The translations under genes were made by a program, and so were the position numbers. DNA of 64,000 bases. It comes from Ahniella affigens (GTDB lineage Bacteria; Pseudomonadota; Gammaproteobacteria; Xanthomonadales; Ahniellaceae). Each line of letters opens with the position of its first letter. Position 1 is the first letter of the stretch. Positions 13,274-53,198 of the stretch are shown piece after piece. The notes beneath the pieces were generated by a model. That model was not told the origin of the DNA. It saw only the letters and a program-made list of their open reading frames with translations, and made no database searches. The stretch lies in assembly GCF_003015185.1 (NCBI RefSeq), contig NZ_CP027860.1:4206501-4270500 (forward strand), read 5' to 3'.

Positions 13274-13446
13274 CGCGGCTTGCACCCAAATCGCCAAAGT
13301 GAGCGCGCATGCTAGCAGTCCCAGGATTGTGGGACCCGCATCCGGGCCAACCCAAGGCATCGTTCAGGTTGCGCCGTGTCATGCCTTCGCCACGCGGCGC
13401 TGCTACGCTCAGGGATTCCAAACAAACTCGCCAAGACAGGGTTTTC

Positions 13447-16400
13447 ATGAACAGAATCGTTCGGCTAAGCGCGCTTGCGCTGGCCATGTCGTCCGTCAGC
13501 AGTCTCGCACCAGGGGCGGCATTCACCCCAGGCAACTTGGCCGTCGCGCGCGTAGGCACCGGCAGCGGCGCCCTGAGCGCCGCAGCGACTGCGGTCTTTA
13601 TCGACGAGTACACCACAAGCGGCACGCTGGTGCAGTCCATCCCGCTGCCCACGGCCGATTCTGGCGCGAATCAGACCTTAACCGTCGCCGGCTCGTCGAC
13701 CTCGGAAGGCATGCTGACACGCTCGACAGATGACCGCTATTTGGTCCTGACCGGTTATGACGCCGCACCCGGAACAGCCTCTGTGGCGGGCACGACCGCC
13801 GCCGCCACGAATCGCATCATCGGCAGAGTGGACGCTACGGGCAGCGTGGACACCACGACCGGCCTCAACAGCGCCTTCAATACGAGCAATATCCGCAGTG
13901 CCGCCACCGCCGATGGCTCCGGCATCTGGGCTGGCGGCACCGGCGCCAGCGGTACGGGTGGTATTTGGTACCAGACTTTCGGTGTGATCGGCGCAGGTAC
14001 CCAGGTGAGTACGACGGTCACCAACACGCGCAATCTGGGCATTTTTGCCAATCAGCTTTACACCACCGCACAATCAGGCGCGATCCGACTCGCGTTCATC
14101 GGCTCAGGCTTGCCAACCACAACCGGCCAGATCATGACCAATCTGCCTGGTCTGCCTACGGCGTCGAATTCGCCCTATGGGTTTGTGGTACTCGACCGCA
14201 CACCCAGTGTTGCCGGAATCGATACCCTTTATTTCGCTGATGACGCAGCGGGACTGCAAAAGTATTCCACCGGTGACGGCATCAACTGGATCGCGCGAGG
14301 TTCCGTCGCTGGCAACCTGCGCGGTCTGACCGCGAGAGTCGACTCCATTACCGGTAGCGTCGTCTTGTTCGGCACGTCAACCGCCACGAGCGCCAACACG
14401 CTGATCACGCTGACCGACACCGCGGCCTTTGACGCGAATATCGTAGCGACGCCTACGGTGATTGCAACGGCCGGCACCAACACCGTATTCCGTGGCGTTG
14501 CGTATGTCCCGTCGGTCGCGGCAACCCCAGAGCTGTCGATTGCCGCAGCGAATGTTGCGGAAGGCAACACGGGCTGCGGCGGCGGCTCGACACCGCTGGA
14601 TTTCCCCGTGACCGCAACGGTGGCGCCGCTCAGCACGTTGACGTTCAACTTCGCCACCAGCGACGGCAGTGCCACCGCAGGCAGTGACTACACCGGCGTC
14701 ATGGCCGGAACCGGCACGATCAATGCGGGCCAGACGACCGGTACCGCAACGGTGCAAGTCAGCTGCGACAATCGCGTTGAAGCCAACGAGAATTTCACCG
14801 CGAGCCTGACGGCGGGCGCGGGCTACACGATCAGCGCCACGAACGGTAGTGCTACGGGCACGATCGGCAACGACGAAGTCGTGGCGGCTCGAATCAGTGA
14901 TGTCACGCAGGCCGAGGGCACGGGCGGCGGCACCACCGCGTTCAACTTCACCGTGTCGCTTGATAACGGTGTCGAAGCCGGTCTGGGCGGCATCAGCATG
15001 CTGTACACCGTCGATGCTGCGGGCGCCACGCCCGGCACCGATGGCGTCGACTTCCTGAGCCCAGCACCCGAACCCGGCCTGTTTACGATTCCAGATGGCA
15101 GCAATAGCGCGACGCTGACCGTGCAAGTCGGCGCCGATAGCACCGATGAACCCAACGACACGTTTGCAGTCACGCTGAGCAACATCGTCGCCGGCAGTAT
15201 TGTCGATGCGACCGGCGATGGCACGATCACCAACGATGATTCGGCTGTGCCCGTGATCAGCATCAATGATGTGTCAGTCACCGAAAACGACGCCGGCGGT
15301 CCAGCCGTCAATGCGGTGTTTACCGTGTCGATCGTCCCGGCACCAACTGGTACGGTCACGGTCACTGCCGACACGGCCAGTGATTCCGCGGTGTCGCCTG
15401 GTGACTTTACGTCGACCAATGCAGTCCTCAGCTTTGACAATGCCAACACGACTCGTCAGTTCACCGTACCGATCACCAATGACTGCACGATCGAAGGCAG
15501 CGAAAGCTTCTTTGTGAATCTGAGCGGCCTGACCGGTACCGCCGCGATTGGCGATAGCCAAGGCGTGGGCACGATCACCGATAACGATGTCGCGATCAAT
15601 GCCAGCATCTCGTTCCTGACGCCGAGTGCCAACGAGGGCGACACCGGCACGAACACCCGCGTGGCACGCGTCACGCTGGATCGCGCGATGCAATGTGGTG
15701 ACTTCACCTACAGCGTCAACAGCACAGGTGGCACTGCGACCTCTGGCACCGACTATCAAGCCGTGGCTGTCAGCAACCAGACAATCAGTGGCGCGGCGAC
15801 GACCGCCGACGTCAACGTCACGATCAACGGTGACCTGGACAGCGAAAGCGATGAAACCGTGACGCTGACCCTGACGGGCGGCGGCACAAACGTCACGATC
15901 ACTCCCAATACCGCCACGGCCACGCTCGTCAACGACGACACCGCGCCGGTCATGACCATTGCCGAGATCCAGGGCGACGGCTCGGCCACGACGGTGCCGG
16001 CCGCACCGAACAACGTGGTCACGACCTTTGGCAATGTGGTGACGACGGTCGCGCCGACCGGCTTCTACATGCAGATGGCGGTGGGCGACGCGAACATGGA
16101 CACGTCGGATGCGATCTTCGTGTTCACGGGCGCGGGCAGTCCATCCCTGACCAACCTCGCGGCTGGCGACGTGGTCACCGTGCGCGGACCAGTGGTCGAG
16201 TTCAACGGTATCACCGAGTTCACCACGGGCTCGGGCATGCCGATTGTTGCTGAGACCGGCACCGCAGCCTTGCCGGCAGCGTTCGTGCTCGACAATGCGA
16301 TTCCGTCGCCGAACAACCTCGTGCCGTTCTGCGATGCCGACAATGACAACAATACGGGCGGCGCCAGCGGTCAGTTCCAGACTACCGATACGTTCCTCAC

Positions 16401-18243
16401 GCGCAACTATGAGTGCCTGGAATTCATGCGCGTGACGACGAGCACGGGCGTGGTCAATGGCCCGAACCAGACGTTCGGTACCGATCCGTATGCCGAGATG
16501 TACATGACCACGAGTGGCGCCCGCAGCTTCCGTGAGCCGGGCCACTCGGTCCTGGTCAACAACGAAAACGTCGCTGCGGTGAATCTGACCCCGCCAGCAC
16601 CGGTGCTGCCAACGTCGCCGATCTGGGATGCCAACCCTGAAATCTTCGAACTGGACGTCGACAAGTTCTTTACGACCACGACGAAGAACGTCCTGCCACC
16701 GCGCACCACGTTCTCAGCAACTGGCTTGCTGGGCTTCGAATTCGGTGGCTACGAGTTCTGGGTCACCGCGAACAGTGGCAACACCGAAGCTGACCTGACC
16801 GTGCAGACGCCCGGCCCCGAACTGCCCATTCCGGTGCCAACCGCCGCACCGACCCAGCTGACCGTCGGCTCGCTGAACGTGCTGCGCCTTTATGACTACT
16901 GCGATGACCCGGGCAGCAGCTCGGGCAACGAGCCCGTCAACGTGGCCGAAACCGACCGCAAGCTGCTGAAGCTGTCGGCGTATATCCGCAACGTGCTGAA
17001 GAGCCCGGATGTCATCGGTATTCAGGAAGTCGAGCTGCCAAGCGTTACGTGCACAACGGGCGACCCGACATCGGCACTGCAATTGCTCGCCAACAAGATT
17101 GCCGCCGATGGCGGCCCGTCGTATGCCGCGATCAATTCGCCGAGCACCAACGACATCGGTCGCATTTCGGTGGCCTTCCTGGTGAACACGGCACGGGTAT
17201 CGGTGACCACCACTACCCAGCTCCGTGCAACCGAGCAGTGGACGTTCACGGCGAACGGCACCCCAACCACCGCGCTGTTGCATGACCGACCACCGTTCCT
17301 GCTGCGCGCCCAGACGACGGTTGGCAATGGCGGCGTGTTCGACTTTGCGGTCATGACCAATCACCTGCGCTCGCTCGGTGGCATCGACACGATCAACACC
17401 GTCACGAATCAGGAGAACGCACACCGCATCCGTCGGAAGAAGCTGGCGCAGTCTGTGGCCGTGGCGTGTGAGGCCCAAACCTTCCAGACCGCCAACCCGC
17501 TGGTGCCACTCGTCTTGATCGGCGACTACAACGCGTTCGAGTTCTCCGACGGCTATACCGATGTCAACGGCATCATCCGTGGCGACACCGATCCGGCCAA
17601 GAGCGAGTACGACATCGGCTTTGACGGCATGACCGGCGGCTGTACCCCGTTTCCGAACGGCCAGATCGTGTCGCCCGCGTTAACGGAAGCGTTGTTCTCA
17701 CTGCCTGCCACCGAGCGCTATTCGTATGTGTTTGGCGGCAACCCGCAGGAGCTCGATCACGCGTTCCTGAGCACAGGGGCACAGTCGCGCTTTATTGCCT
17801 TTGCTTACGGTCGCGGCAATGCTGATGCGCCCGCCCGCGAAGAAACGCAGCCGCTGATCACGGTGCCGGTGGAAAAGGTTCTGTTTGCGTCCGACCACGA
17901 CGGCTTTGTGATGCGACTCGACCCAAGCGCCAATCGCGCGCCGCTTGTCGCGAGCCCGATTGCGAATCAGAGCGGGGTCGTCGGCAACAGCGTCACGCTG
18001 AATGTGCTGAGTTCATTCTCCGATCCGGACAACGACACGCTGACTTGCACCGCTCAGAGTCTGCCGAATGGCCTCAGCATCAATAGCAGCTGCGTGATCT
18101 CGGGCACCTTGGCGGCTGGTTCGGACATGGGCTCGCCTTACACGGTCACCGTACGCGCAACCGACACCTCCGGCCTGTTTGTCGAGACCACGTTTACGTT
18201 CACGGTGTTGCCGGTCGCCGTGTTCGCCGACGGCTTCGAGTAA
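13447..18243 (+). CDS. Modular extracellular nuclease (ExeM/NucH-like) with C-terminal DGFE peptide
   Basis: A 1598-residue secreted protein. It has a signal peptide (MNRIVRLSALALAMSSVSSLAPGAA) and a beta-rich, propeller-like region to about 355. About four Calx-beta domains follow at roughly 360-475, 478-600, 601-715 and 716-832, each with acidic calcium-type motifs such as EANENF, DEPNDTF and ESDETV. A region resembling the ExeM/NucH OB-like domain runs to about 1134. The endonuclease/exonuclease/phosphatase domain (about 1136-1488) shows IGIQEVE, TNHLRS, LIGDYNAFE and FASDHDGF. An Ig/cadherin-like domain (NRAPLVASPIANQ onward) follows, and the protein ends VAVFADGFE. It probably degrades extracellular DNA. 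The final octapeptide is shared with the esterase at 51.9 kb. Confidence 0.9.
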   Translation: MNRIVRLSALALAMSSVSSLAPGAAFTPGNLAVARVGTGSGALSAAATAVFIDEYTTSGTLVQSIPLPTADSGANQTLTVAGSSTSEGMLTRSTDDRYLVLTGYDAAPGTASVAGTTAAATNRIIGRVDATGSVDTTTGLNSAFNTSNIRSAATADGSGIWAGGTGASGTGGIWYQTFGVIGAGTQVSTTVTNTRNLGIFANQLYTTAQSGAIRLAFIGSGLPTTTGQIMTNLPGLPTASNSPYGFVVLDRTPSVAGIDTLYFADDAAGLQKYSTGDGINWIARGSVAGNLRGLTARVDSITGSVVLFGTSTATSANTLITLTDTAAFDANIVATPTVIATAGTNTVFRGVAYVPSVAATPELSIAAANVAEGNTGCGGGSTPLDFPVTATVAPLSTLTFNFATSDGSATAGSDYTGVMAGTGTINAGQTTGTATVQVSCDNRVEANENFTASLTAGAGYTISATNGSATGTIGNDEVVAARISDVTQAEGTGGGTTAFNFTVSLDNGVEAGLGGISMLYTVDAAGATPGTDGVDFLSPAPEPGLFTIPDGSNSATLTVQVGADSTDEPNDTFAVTLSNIVAGSIVDATGDGTITNDDSAVPVISINDVSVTENDAGGPAVNAVFTVSIVPAPTGTVTVTADTASDSAVSPGDFTSTNAVLSFDNANTTRQFTVPITNDCTIEGSESFFVNLSGLTGTAAIGDSQGVGTITDNDVAINASISFLTPSANEGDTGTNTRVARVTLDRAMQCGDFTYSVNSTGGTATSGTDYQAVAVSNQTISGAATTADVNVTINGDLDSESDETVTLTLTGGGTNVTITPNTATATLVNDDTAPVMTIAEIQGDGSATTVPAAPNNVVTTFGNVVTTVAPTGFYMQMAVGDANMDTSDAIFVFTGAGSPSLTNLAAGDVVTVRGPVVEFNGITEFTTGSGMPIVAETGTAALPAAFVLDNAIPSPNNLVPFCDADNDNNTGGASGQFQTTDTFLTRNYECLEFMRVTTSTGVVNGPNQTFGTDPYAEMYMTTSGARSFREPGHSVLVNNENVAAVNLTPPAPVLPTSPIWDANPEIFELDVDKFFTTTTKNVLPPRTTFSATGLLGFEFGGYEFWVTANSGNTEADLTVQTPGPELPIPVPTAAPTQLTVGSLNVLRLYDYCDDPGSSSGNEPVNVAETDRKLLKLSAYIRNVLKSPDVIGIQEVELPSVTCTTGDPTSALQLLANKIAADGGPSYAAINSPSTNDIGRISVAFLVNTARVSVTTTTQLRATEQWTFTANGTPTTALLHDRPPFLLRAQTTVGNGGVFDFAVMTNHLRSLGGIDTINTVTNQENAHRIRRKKLAQSVAVACEAQTFQTANPLVPLVLIGDYNAFEFSDGYTDVNGIIRGDTDPAKSEYDIGFDGMTGGCTPFPNGQIVSPALTEALFSLPATERYSYVFGGNPQELDHAFLSTGAQSRFIAFAYGRGNADAPAREETQPLITVPVEKVLFASDHDGFVMRLDPSANRAPLVASPIANQSGVVGNSVTLNVLSSFSDPDNDTLTCTAQSLPNGLSINSSCVISGTLAAGSDMGSPYTVTVRATDTSGLFVETTFTFTVLPVAVFADGFE

Positions 18244-51878: not shown

Positions 51879-53198
51879 ATGGCCACGATCCGGGAGCTGT
51901 TCTGCAACGTGGCGGTTGGGTTCGTGCTGGCGGCAGCAAGTGCCGTCGCAGCGGCGCAATACACGACCAGCAATCGCACCTTGCAGGTCGGGCCGATTCA
52001 GCGCTCCTACCTGCTGGCAACCCCAAATAGCGGAAGCGCGGGCAAGCCTTTGGTACTTTCGTTTCATGGTGATGGCGGCACCGGTGCCGGCATGCGCAGC
52101 AGCCTGCCGATGGAAACTGCGGCGGGTGGTGGTGCTGTGTTTGTGTATCCGAATGCCTCGAATGCGCCGGCCGTTGGGGGCACCTTCGAGTATTTCAGCG
52201 ACTCGGGACGCAGCGCTGGCGTCGATTTCGTTCGCGCAGTGATCGACGCTTTGGAAACCGAGCTCCAGATCGATCGCAGCCGCGTGTTTCTGGCTGGGTT
52301 CAGTGGCGGCGCGACGATGATCAACGCGCTCGGCTGTCGCATGGAGGCAGACGAGATTCGCGGGCTCGGGATCCATTCCGGATCGCTGTATCCGATCAAC
52401 GACTTCACCTACACCGGCAACGGGGGCGTGTCGTGTGCGCTGCCGGCGTCGATGCTGATCTGGGGCGAGGCCGACAACACGTCTGGCGTGACGTTTGCCA
52501 TCGGCCAGGGCGTGCGTGACAACCACCGCTTTACGCAGACCTGCGCCAGTACCAATACACCGTTCGCGCCGTCCCCCTGCATTCAATATGAGTCGTGTCA
52601 GCGCGACGTGGCCTGGTGCCAGATTCCCGCGATGGGCCATAGCATTTGGGCACAGGCCGCTACGGCATTCTGGAACTTCTTCTCGGCTCAAAGCCCGGCG
52701 CCGCCGCCAACCAGCGTGAGCATTTATGCCGACAGCCTGCAGAACAACTGGGAAGACTATTCCTGGGGCACGGTCAATTTCAGCGCCACACCTGCGCATG
52801 CGGGGACGTTGGCAATCCGCTTTGATGCGCACAGCTTTCAAGGATTGTCGTTTGCGCGTCCGAGCATGCCCGTTCAGCAATCGATGTTTCCCGAAATACG
52901 CTTCTACGTTCGTGGCAACGCTGGCAACGAGAATCTGAATGTGTCACTGCAGTCTGGCAACACACTGCATGCCAATGTGGCGCTGAACCAACTGCTACCG
53001 GGCGGCGTTTCGACGAGTTGGCGGGAGGTCCGATTCCGACCTGCCGACCCACCCATGTCGTACGCCGGCGACTTTGAGCGCATCAATCTGCAAGACAACA
53101 CCGGCAATGCCGCCGGGAATCCGCAGGTCGTGTTCGTTGACACGGTCGATCTGCTGGCGCCAAGCACTGCAAGCGTGTTCGGCGACGGCTTCGAATAG
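51879..53198 (+). CDS. Secreted PHB-depolymerase/feruloyl-esterase-like hydrolase with C-terminal DGFE peptide
   Basis: A 439-residue secreted alpha/beta hydrolase. The signal peptide ends VAAAQ. The catalytic domain (about 30-275) has LSFHGDGGTG (oxyanion region), the nucleophile S142 in LAGFSGGATM, a likely Asp in WGEADNTS and the His in PAMGHSIW. This is the layout of the LpqC/PHB depolymerase family, whose members cleave polyesters or feruloyl/acetyl esters. After a Pro-rich linker (PAPPPTS), a beta-sandwich of about 150 residues suggests carbohydrate binding. The chain ends ASVFGDGFE, matching the end of the extracellular nuclease. Confidence 0.87.
   Translation: MATIRELFCNVAVGFVLAAASAVAAAQYTTSNRTLQVGPIQRSYLLATPNSGSAGKPLVLSFHGDGGTGAGMRSSLPMETAAGGGAVFVYPNASNAPAVGGTFEYFSDSGRSAGVDFVRAVIDALETELQIDRSRVFLAGFSGGATMINALGCRMEADEIRGLGIHSGSLYPINDFTYTGNGGVSCALPASMLIWGEADNTSGVTFAIGQGVRDNHRFTQTCASTNTPFAPSPCIQYESCQRDVAWCQIPAMGHSIWAQAATAFWNFFSAQSPAPPPTSVSIYADSLQNNWEDYSWGTVNFSATPAHAGTLAIRFDAHSFQGLSFARPSMPVQQSMFPEIRFYVRGNAGNENLNVSLQSGNTLHANVALNQLLPGGVSTSWREVRFRPADPPMSYAGDFERINLQDNTGNAAGNPQVVFVDTVDLLAPSTASVFGDGFE

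Follow-up and report, generated by a model that had tools for sequence, protein, structure and literature searches.

Why do two unrelated secreted enzymes end in nearly the same peptide? The question is raised by a 64,000-nucleotide stretch of the Ahniella affigens genome (the window), which encodes both. The first, on the forward strand at 13447–18243, is a secreted ExeM/NucH-type nuclease of 1598 residues, counted from the ATG at 13447 that was taken as the start of an ORF opening at 13309. A simple predictor finds a Sec signal peptide, MNRIVRLSALALAMSSVSSLAPGAA (13447–13521). It is followed by three Calx-beta repeats, an endonuclease region (16039–17922) that matches NF033681 with a score below the curated cut-off of that model, and a He_PIG Ig-type domain found by Pfam search (17938–18207). 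Directly downstream of this domain lies the tag, AVFADGFE with its stop codon (18217–18243), and the protein ends in ...VLPVAVFADGFE. The second enzyme, also on the forward strand (51879–53198), is a secreted PHB-depolymerase-like esterase of 439 residues recognized by domain searches; it ends in ...STASVFGDGFE, with the tag SVFGDGFE and stop codon at 53172–53198. Its probable Sec signal peptide, MATIRELFCNVAVGFVLAAASAVAAA (51879–51956), was read by eye from the sequence; a single acidic residue in the n-region keeps the simple predictor from calling it. Both endings and both N-terminal signal peptides agree with an earlier note on this DNA. The note had also placed a beta-sandwich before each tail; the He_PIG domain bears this out for the nuclease, and for the esterase it is plausible, with no Pfam match ahead of the tail and an uninformative single-sequence AlphaFold model (mean pLDDT 34). 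Among the closed ORFs of the window, these two alone have the motif. At the left edge, positions 1–414 of the reverse strand encode the N-terminal part of a third tag protein, a delta-60/DUF5122 beta-propeller ending in GVFSNSFE, whose tag lies about 1 kb to the left of the window.

The ending proved to be frequent in the genome. Across its 6.12 Mb, FxDGFE followed by a stop codon was matched 17 times and the reversed pattern 0 times; Fx[DN]xFE followed by TAA or TGA gave 52 matches against 0 for the control, and F-x-x-x-F-[ED] before a stop-like codon gave 115 against 26. Sixty regions of 20 kb were cut around motif matches and yielded 78 different tail ORFs; with the listed matches outside these regions added, we estimate about 90 tagged proteins in the genome. 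Residues were counted by position in the 73 tail ORFs longer than 100 residues, where F at −6, F at −2 and E at −1 are fixed by the collecting pattern. Position −7 was L, V, I or M in 70 of the 73; A, R or S predominated at −5; N (35), D (30), H (5) and S (3) occupied −4, and −3 was mostly G (41) or S (26), with D in 4. This gives [LVIM]-F-x-[N/D]-[G/S]-F-E as the C-terminal consensus, and near variants with L or Y replacing the first F are also present. Among 986 predicted proteins (358,684 residues), F-x-[DN]-[GS]-F-E was terminal in 54, lay up to 20 residues from the end in 11 and was internal in 3; these proteins come from regions picked for tails, and the scarcity of internal copies is the only unbiased figure among the three. 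Tag genes use all three stop codons, both F codons and both E codons, a variation that points to selection at the level of the peptide. Several tag-ending ORFs of 50–70 codons (L058, L061, L063 and L077) have no signal peptide and are probably gene remnants or truncated duplicates; the last 18 residues of the one in L063 are common to the intact gene of L064, 15 kb away.

The proteins that carry the tag are predominantly of the exported kind, a Sec signal peptide being present on almost all whose ORF is full-length. Tail proteins were called from ORFs rather than from annotation, and a strict home-made rule (M start, positive n-region, hydrophobic core, AxA-like site) found a signal peptide in 55 of 67 of them, compared with 204 among 786 other proteins from these regions. 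Those that failed mostly had GTG or TTG starts, came from truncated ORFs, or had clear signal peptides that narrowly missed the rule. Tails from other genomes of the order likewise sit on signal-peptide proteins. The folds ahead of the tail are unrelated and include ExeM/NucH and endonuclease I nucleases, M14 carboxypeptidases with MAM-like domains, the esterase, right-handed beta-helices, beta-propellers, cadherin/Ig and Calx-beta domains, and a MopE metal-binding motif protein. A shared ending could in principle arise by chance or by common descent of a C-terminal domain, and some carriers are indeed paralogues. This account is extremely improbable in view of the control counts (17 against 0, 52 against 0), the unrelated preceding domains, the varied codons and the near absence of internal copies; we regard it as practically certain that the tag is a genuine protein-level signal.

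These counts bear on several points of the earlier note. The genome scan that it had proposed places the motif ending far above chance, and its central observation, a C-terminal tag on unrelated exported proteins, extends to dozens of unrelated signal-peptide carriers, among which the expected enrichment for signal peptides is plain. The contrary outcome that it had considered, a motif no commoner at the C-termini of exported proteins than elsewhere, is not what was found (internal copies are scarce, 3 among 986 proteins). Its phrase 'exact terminal peptide' captured a real shared ending but was too narrow, as N and D alternate, and so do G and S. The tag forms the very last residues, as had been stated, in both window copies and in most other proteins, but a minority carry 1–20 extra residues after the motif. 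Its view that the tag differs in class from PEP-CTERM and GlyGly-CTERM stands as well: in the last 32 residues we found neither the hydrophobic segment nor the basic cluster of PEP-CTERM, GlyGly-CTERM or MYXO-CTERM signals, and the tails end in FE. Among the twelve proteins scanned, no NCBIfam model covered the tail itself.

Other C-terminal signals were also compared with the tag. In Bacteroidota, the T9SS signal takes the form of a long folded domain. The tag resembles it in being a soluble C-terminal signal on Sec-exported proteins, but it is a short peptide found in one order of Gammaproteobacteria; conservation is confined to the last 7–9 or so positions, the preceding domains are unrelated, and a folded domain of about 80 residues is not seen. 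A type I secretion signal, which is C-terminal and goes without an N-terminal signal peptide, does not fit proteins that have Sec signal peptides. In SsrA-like and DegS/Tsp recognition, PDZ-type domains read short peptides at the extreme C-terminus; this tag, in contrast, is genome-encoded on exported enzymes and linked to a T2SS described below. With GlyGly-CTERM/rhombosortase, PEP-CTERM/exosortase and MYXO-CTERM/myxosortase the tag shares its occurrence on many unrelated exported proteins and its patchy distribution among genomes, and the partner was, as in those systems, sought by phylogenetic profile. It differs from them in being some seven residues long and, in most proteins, strictly terminal, and in that the partner found is a T2SS locus and not an intramembrane protease. 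GlyGly-CTERM proteins also use a T2SS (PMC3237569, PMC12369372).

A dedicated enzyme encoded beside the tag genes was sought and rejected, since the neighbours in the 60 regions of this genome and in 20 regions of low-copy genomes share none. The only recurrent neighbours are paralogous tag proteins and a large family of proteins of about 900 residues whose sequence suggests that they may be Ser/Thr-kinase-like. This family was seen at 14 loci, nearly all of them in this genome (L047, L048, L050, L067 and L069 among them).

Among genomes, the tag is limited to this order and is patchy inside it. The strict motif occurs in 96 of 299 genomes of the order, with up to 36 copies per genome and few control matches, so that the similar endings mentioned earlier for other Xanthomonadales do recur across the order. 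It is common in families f1, f3, f4, f5, f6, f8 and f11 and almost entirely missing from f2 and f12, where isolated genera make the exception (g48 and g72 of f2; g17, g26, g54 and g64 of f12). Lone FxDGFE matches in G094, G140 and G179 are false, the motif being followed by TGG and not by a stop codon. Outside the order, 365 genomes of the class gave 0–2 matches per genome, a background near the control.

What accompanies the tag is a particular T2SS. The presence of a T2SS as such was discarded as a partner, as every genome searched has a GspD match and the subtype alone discriminates. Tag-positive f12 genomes have an extra GspD scoring 562–584 bits that the sampled tag-negative f12 genomes do not have. 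When 40 GspDs were placed in a tree, the extra copies from sampled tag-positive genomes grouped as one clade (support 99/98), which we named T2SS-A; the sampled tag-negative genomes contain other GspD types only, the exception being G009, from a genus whose tag is of a variant form. Since the inner branching of the clade follows the families, T2SS-A seems to have been inherited vertically, with losses across most of f2 and f12. It was found, among others, in records named Dokdonella fugitiva, Rehaibacterium, Aquimonas, Tahibacter, Rudaea, Chiayiivirga and Wenzhouxiangella; D. fugitiva, a culturable species that also has the tag, is represented by the T2SS-A loci L234 and L251. The locus consists of gspC-gspD-gspE, followed by gspF in some genomes, and adjoins ftsE-ftsX and rpoH in several (L140, L154 and L156 represent a conserved neighbourhood). 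Pseudopilin and gspL/M genes are not found at the T2SS-A locus; the genes beside gspC-D-E were considered as pseudopilins and rejected, being ftsE, ftsX and rpoH by sequence. By tblastn, GspC was present in 21 of 21 T2SS-A loci examined and in none of the sampled type-B and Xps-type loci, with a weak match in one Xcs-like locus.

A GspC-A profile built from the 21 sequences was run over the 299 genomes, and its matches were compared with their tag numbers. Over all 299, the unselected figures, at least two tags were found in 82 of 109 genomes with GspC-A and in 11 of 190 without. Among genomes at least 90% complete and with f9 left out, a step taken only after the low counts of that family had been seen, at least two tags were present in 56 of 58 GspC-A genomes and in 3 of 166 lacking GspC-A (Fisher p = 1.7e-46). 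Within f2 and f12, the best-sampled families and nearly all complete, the counts were 12 of 12 with GspC-A against 0 of 142 without (p = 4e-18); both p-values ignore shared ancestry, and the independent contrasts number about five (f2, f12, f8/G019, f7/g56 and, partially, f9). In the tail-rich family f8, the complete genome G019 has neither tag nor GspC-A. Among the exceptions, the assemblies of G041 and G117 are fragmented. G096, at 98% completeness in 80 contigs, has four convincing tag proteins, yet the profile search finds no GspC-A there, and it stands as an exception; f9 keeps T2SS-A, yet its tags are rarer and often of the form FxDRFE. Of the protein families compared with the tag, namely Peptidase C13, GspD and GspC, those of T2SS-A follow it, and a gene outside these families may correlate better still. 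T2SS-A supplies the co-occurring secretion gene that the earlier note had thought worth looking for, as an alternative to a protease; co-distribution cannot tell which T2SS-A component or linked gene reads the tag. The tag proteins are what T2SS cargo is expected to be, Sec-exported proteins of extracellular type in genomes with the matching T2SS. On the strength of motif, signal peptides and co-distribution, they are likely to be targeted to T2SS-A.

ExeM/NucH homologues offer a comparison within one protein family. In f2 genomes without T2SS-A they end right past the catalytic end, in SDHDPLLLGFDL or similar; several in T2SS-A genomes run on into the tag, such as SDHDPIVVAIVPALVFADGFE (G072) and SDHDPVLIGLFDSDLIFRDGFQ (G012), and the copy of our genome in L075 ends in ASDHDPVMVGLFGLPDPMFQNGFE. 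Tail-less paralogues are also kept in some T2SS-A genomes. From tailed and tail-less homologues the tag behaves as an added module. In G096, G118, G113 and G064 the homologues have an IPTL-CTERM-like anchor in place of the tag. IPTL-CTERM-like ends such as IPTLSQYGLALLALMMLMIGVVSVRRFA were seen in homologues of f7, f8 and f9 (L185, L187, L191 and L204), at the place where relatives have the FxDGFE tag; the IPTL-CTERM signal, a hydrophobic anchor followed by arginines, thus shares a comparable position with a tag that is itself soluble.

That the homologues of the order carry either the tag or an anchor in a comparable place recommends the main rival to targeting, a surface sorting or processing signal. 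Proteins would leave by T2SS-A, and a putative enzyme would cut the tail at Asx-Gly/Ser and anchor or release them, much as happens with the tails of GlyGly-CTERM, MYXO-CTERM or T9SS proteins. Modules known to precede C-terminal sorting signals do lie ahead of the tag, as the choice-of-anchor Q region of one tag protein stops 12 residues short of the C-terminus, and several others match, immediately ahead of the tag, the terminal parts of M36 peptidases that depend on rhombosortase or myxosortase. Residues beyond the motif are also tolerated, and [ND]-[GS]-F resembles Asx ligase sites. On the other hand, the tail has no membrane segment to hold a precursor, H and S are also found at the Asx position, and the obvious Asx transpeptidase family, Peptidase C13 (PF01650), does not follow the tag: it is absent from our genome and from tagged f3, f5 and f8 and present in many tag-negative f12 genomes. 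We consider processing somewhat unlikely; among the roles of sorting, secretion and processing that had been proposed for the peptide, the evidence favours secretion as its predicted function. The f4 genomes G016, G034 and G004 have partial Peptidase C13 domains in very long ORFs of roughly 870–3600 codons, as many as about ten per genome.

Which part of T2SS-A would read the tag? GspC-A matches PF11356 and has a C-terminal PDZ domain, and by profile it matches the PDZ structures of OutC/PulC and EpsC. A confident model built from relatives has the TM helix, HR domain and PDZ domain that make up a GspC and matches 3oss, 2i4s and 5hj1. The modelled PDZ domain is nearest to those of PulC and EpsC (Z 11) and is similar to the DegS PDZ bound to C-terminal peptides. 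The TM-HR-PDZ order is that of OutC of Dickeya and EpsC of Vibrio, systems in which part of the cargo depends on a PDZ-bearing GspC. The extreme C-terminus of a protein is the classical target of a PDZ domain, and the EpsC PDZ is required for VesB secretion (PMC12369372). XpsC of Xanthomonas has a helix in place of the PDZ fold (PMC11981180). We infer the following route. Tagged proteins would enter the periplasm by means of Sec signal peptides and reach their folded state there; the tail, being short and flexible, would then dock the folded protein on T2SS-A, with the peptide groove of the C-terminal GspC PDZ domain as the most likely site, and the docked protein would leave, still folded, through the T2SS-A secretin. 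Our explanation of the tail as a whole, a soluble linear C-terminal targeting tag of T2SS-A most likely read by the GspC PDZ, is accordingly put forward as probable. Given targeting to T2SS-A, the PDZ domain is also the probable reader, a prediction about binding.

Several observations weigh against this reading. A GspC with a PDZ-region match occurs in tagless genomes (Xcs-like in some f2, G246, G229 and distant Gammaproteobacteria), which makes a PDZ domain alone insufficient. Tags with 1–20 further residues (11, against 54 strictly terminal ones) sit badly with strict carboxylate recognition, G096 has tags without a detected GspC-A, and f9 has T2SS-A but few tags. The known VesB signal for the EpsC PDZ lies in an Ig fold and is graftable, and is not a linear tail (PMC12369372). 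The divergent GspCs (E about 1e-37 to 1e-45) of G246 and G229, one f2 and one f12 genome, perhaps mark a separately acquired T2SS.

Another part of T2SS-A, such as the N-domains of GspD or the pseudopilus tip, might read the tag instead of the PDZ. Co-distribution does not separate the components, the extended tags are ill-suited to a strict PDZ mode, and there is a precedent in PelI of Dickeya, which contacts both GspC and GspD (PMC7949064). A conserved extreme C-terminal peptide is nevertheless the classical PDZ ligand, and the PDZ-bearing GspC is, by tblastn, absent from the sampled type-B and Xps-type loci; we judge such a reader unlikely. A connection outside secretion is offered by PDZ proteases such as DegS, which read C-termini, and the tag could on that ground be a periplasmic retention or quality-control signal recognized by a protease or chaperone. 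The carriers are typical extracellular enzymes, however, the patchy distribution follows the secretion system, and no protease was seen to track the tag (C13 being the one examined), all of which renders this reading highly improbable.

With targeting by T2SS-A and reading by its GspC PDZ as the preferred explanation, the tag would address a long-standing open question, how a T2SS chooses its cargo. No common or universal linear T2SS signal is known (PMC12369372, PMC7949064), and the signals known for OutC and EpsC are structural, in Fn3/Ig loops (PMC12369372, PMC7949064), unlike the one linear C-terminal motif on dozens of proteins seen here. No earlier description of the tag was found in the open-access literature searched, where queries with the motif letters gave noise only. 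Tentatively, this seven-residue C-terminal peptide read by the GspC PDZ may be the first linear, transferable and near-universal T2SS address tag. If so, the T2SS-A exoproteome could be read directly from a genome sequence and the exoproteomes of the order predicted, T2SS selection could be tested directly, by deleting the tag, by grafting it and by measuring peptide binding, and a small secretion tag for exporting folded enzymes would be at hand. Even as a surface-sorting signal, it would represent a class without a membrane anchor, with defined candidate genomes in which to find its enzyme.

Family f9 also shows a variation on both sides of the proposed interaction, which concerns one clade and was kept out of the evidence. 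Its tags are few, and several signal-peptide proteins end instead in F-x-D-R-F-E (L313, L314, L316, L317, L319 and L320). The GspC-A PDZ of this clade has a deletion of 3–4 residues beside the GVRL-like strand and a change at position 282, possibly a co-change with the FxDRFE tag.
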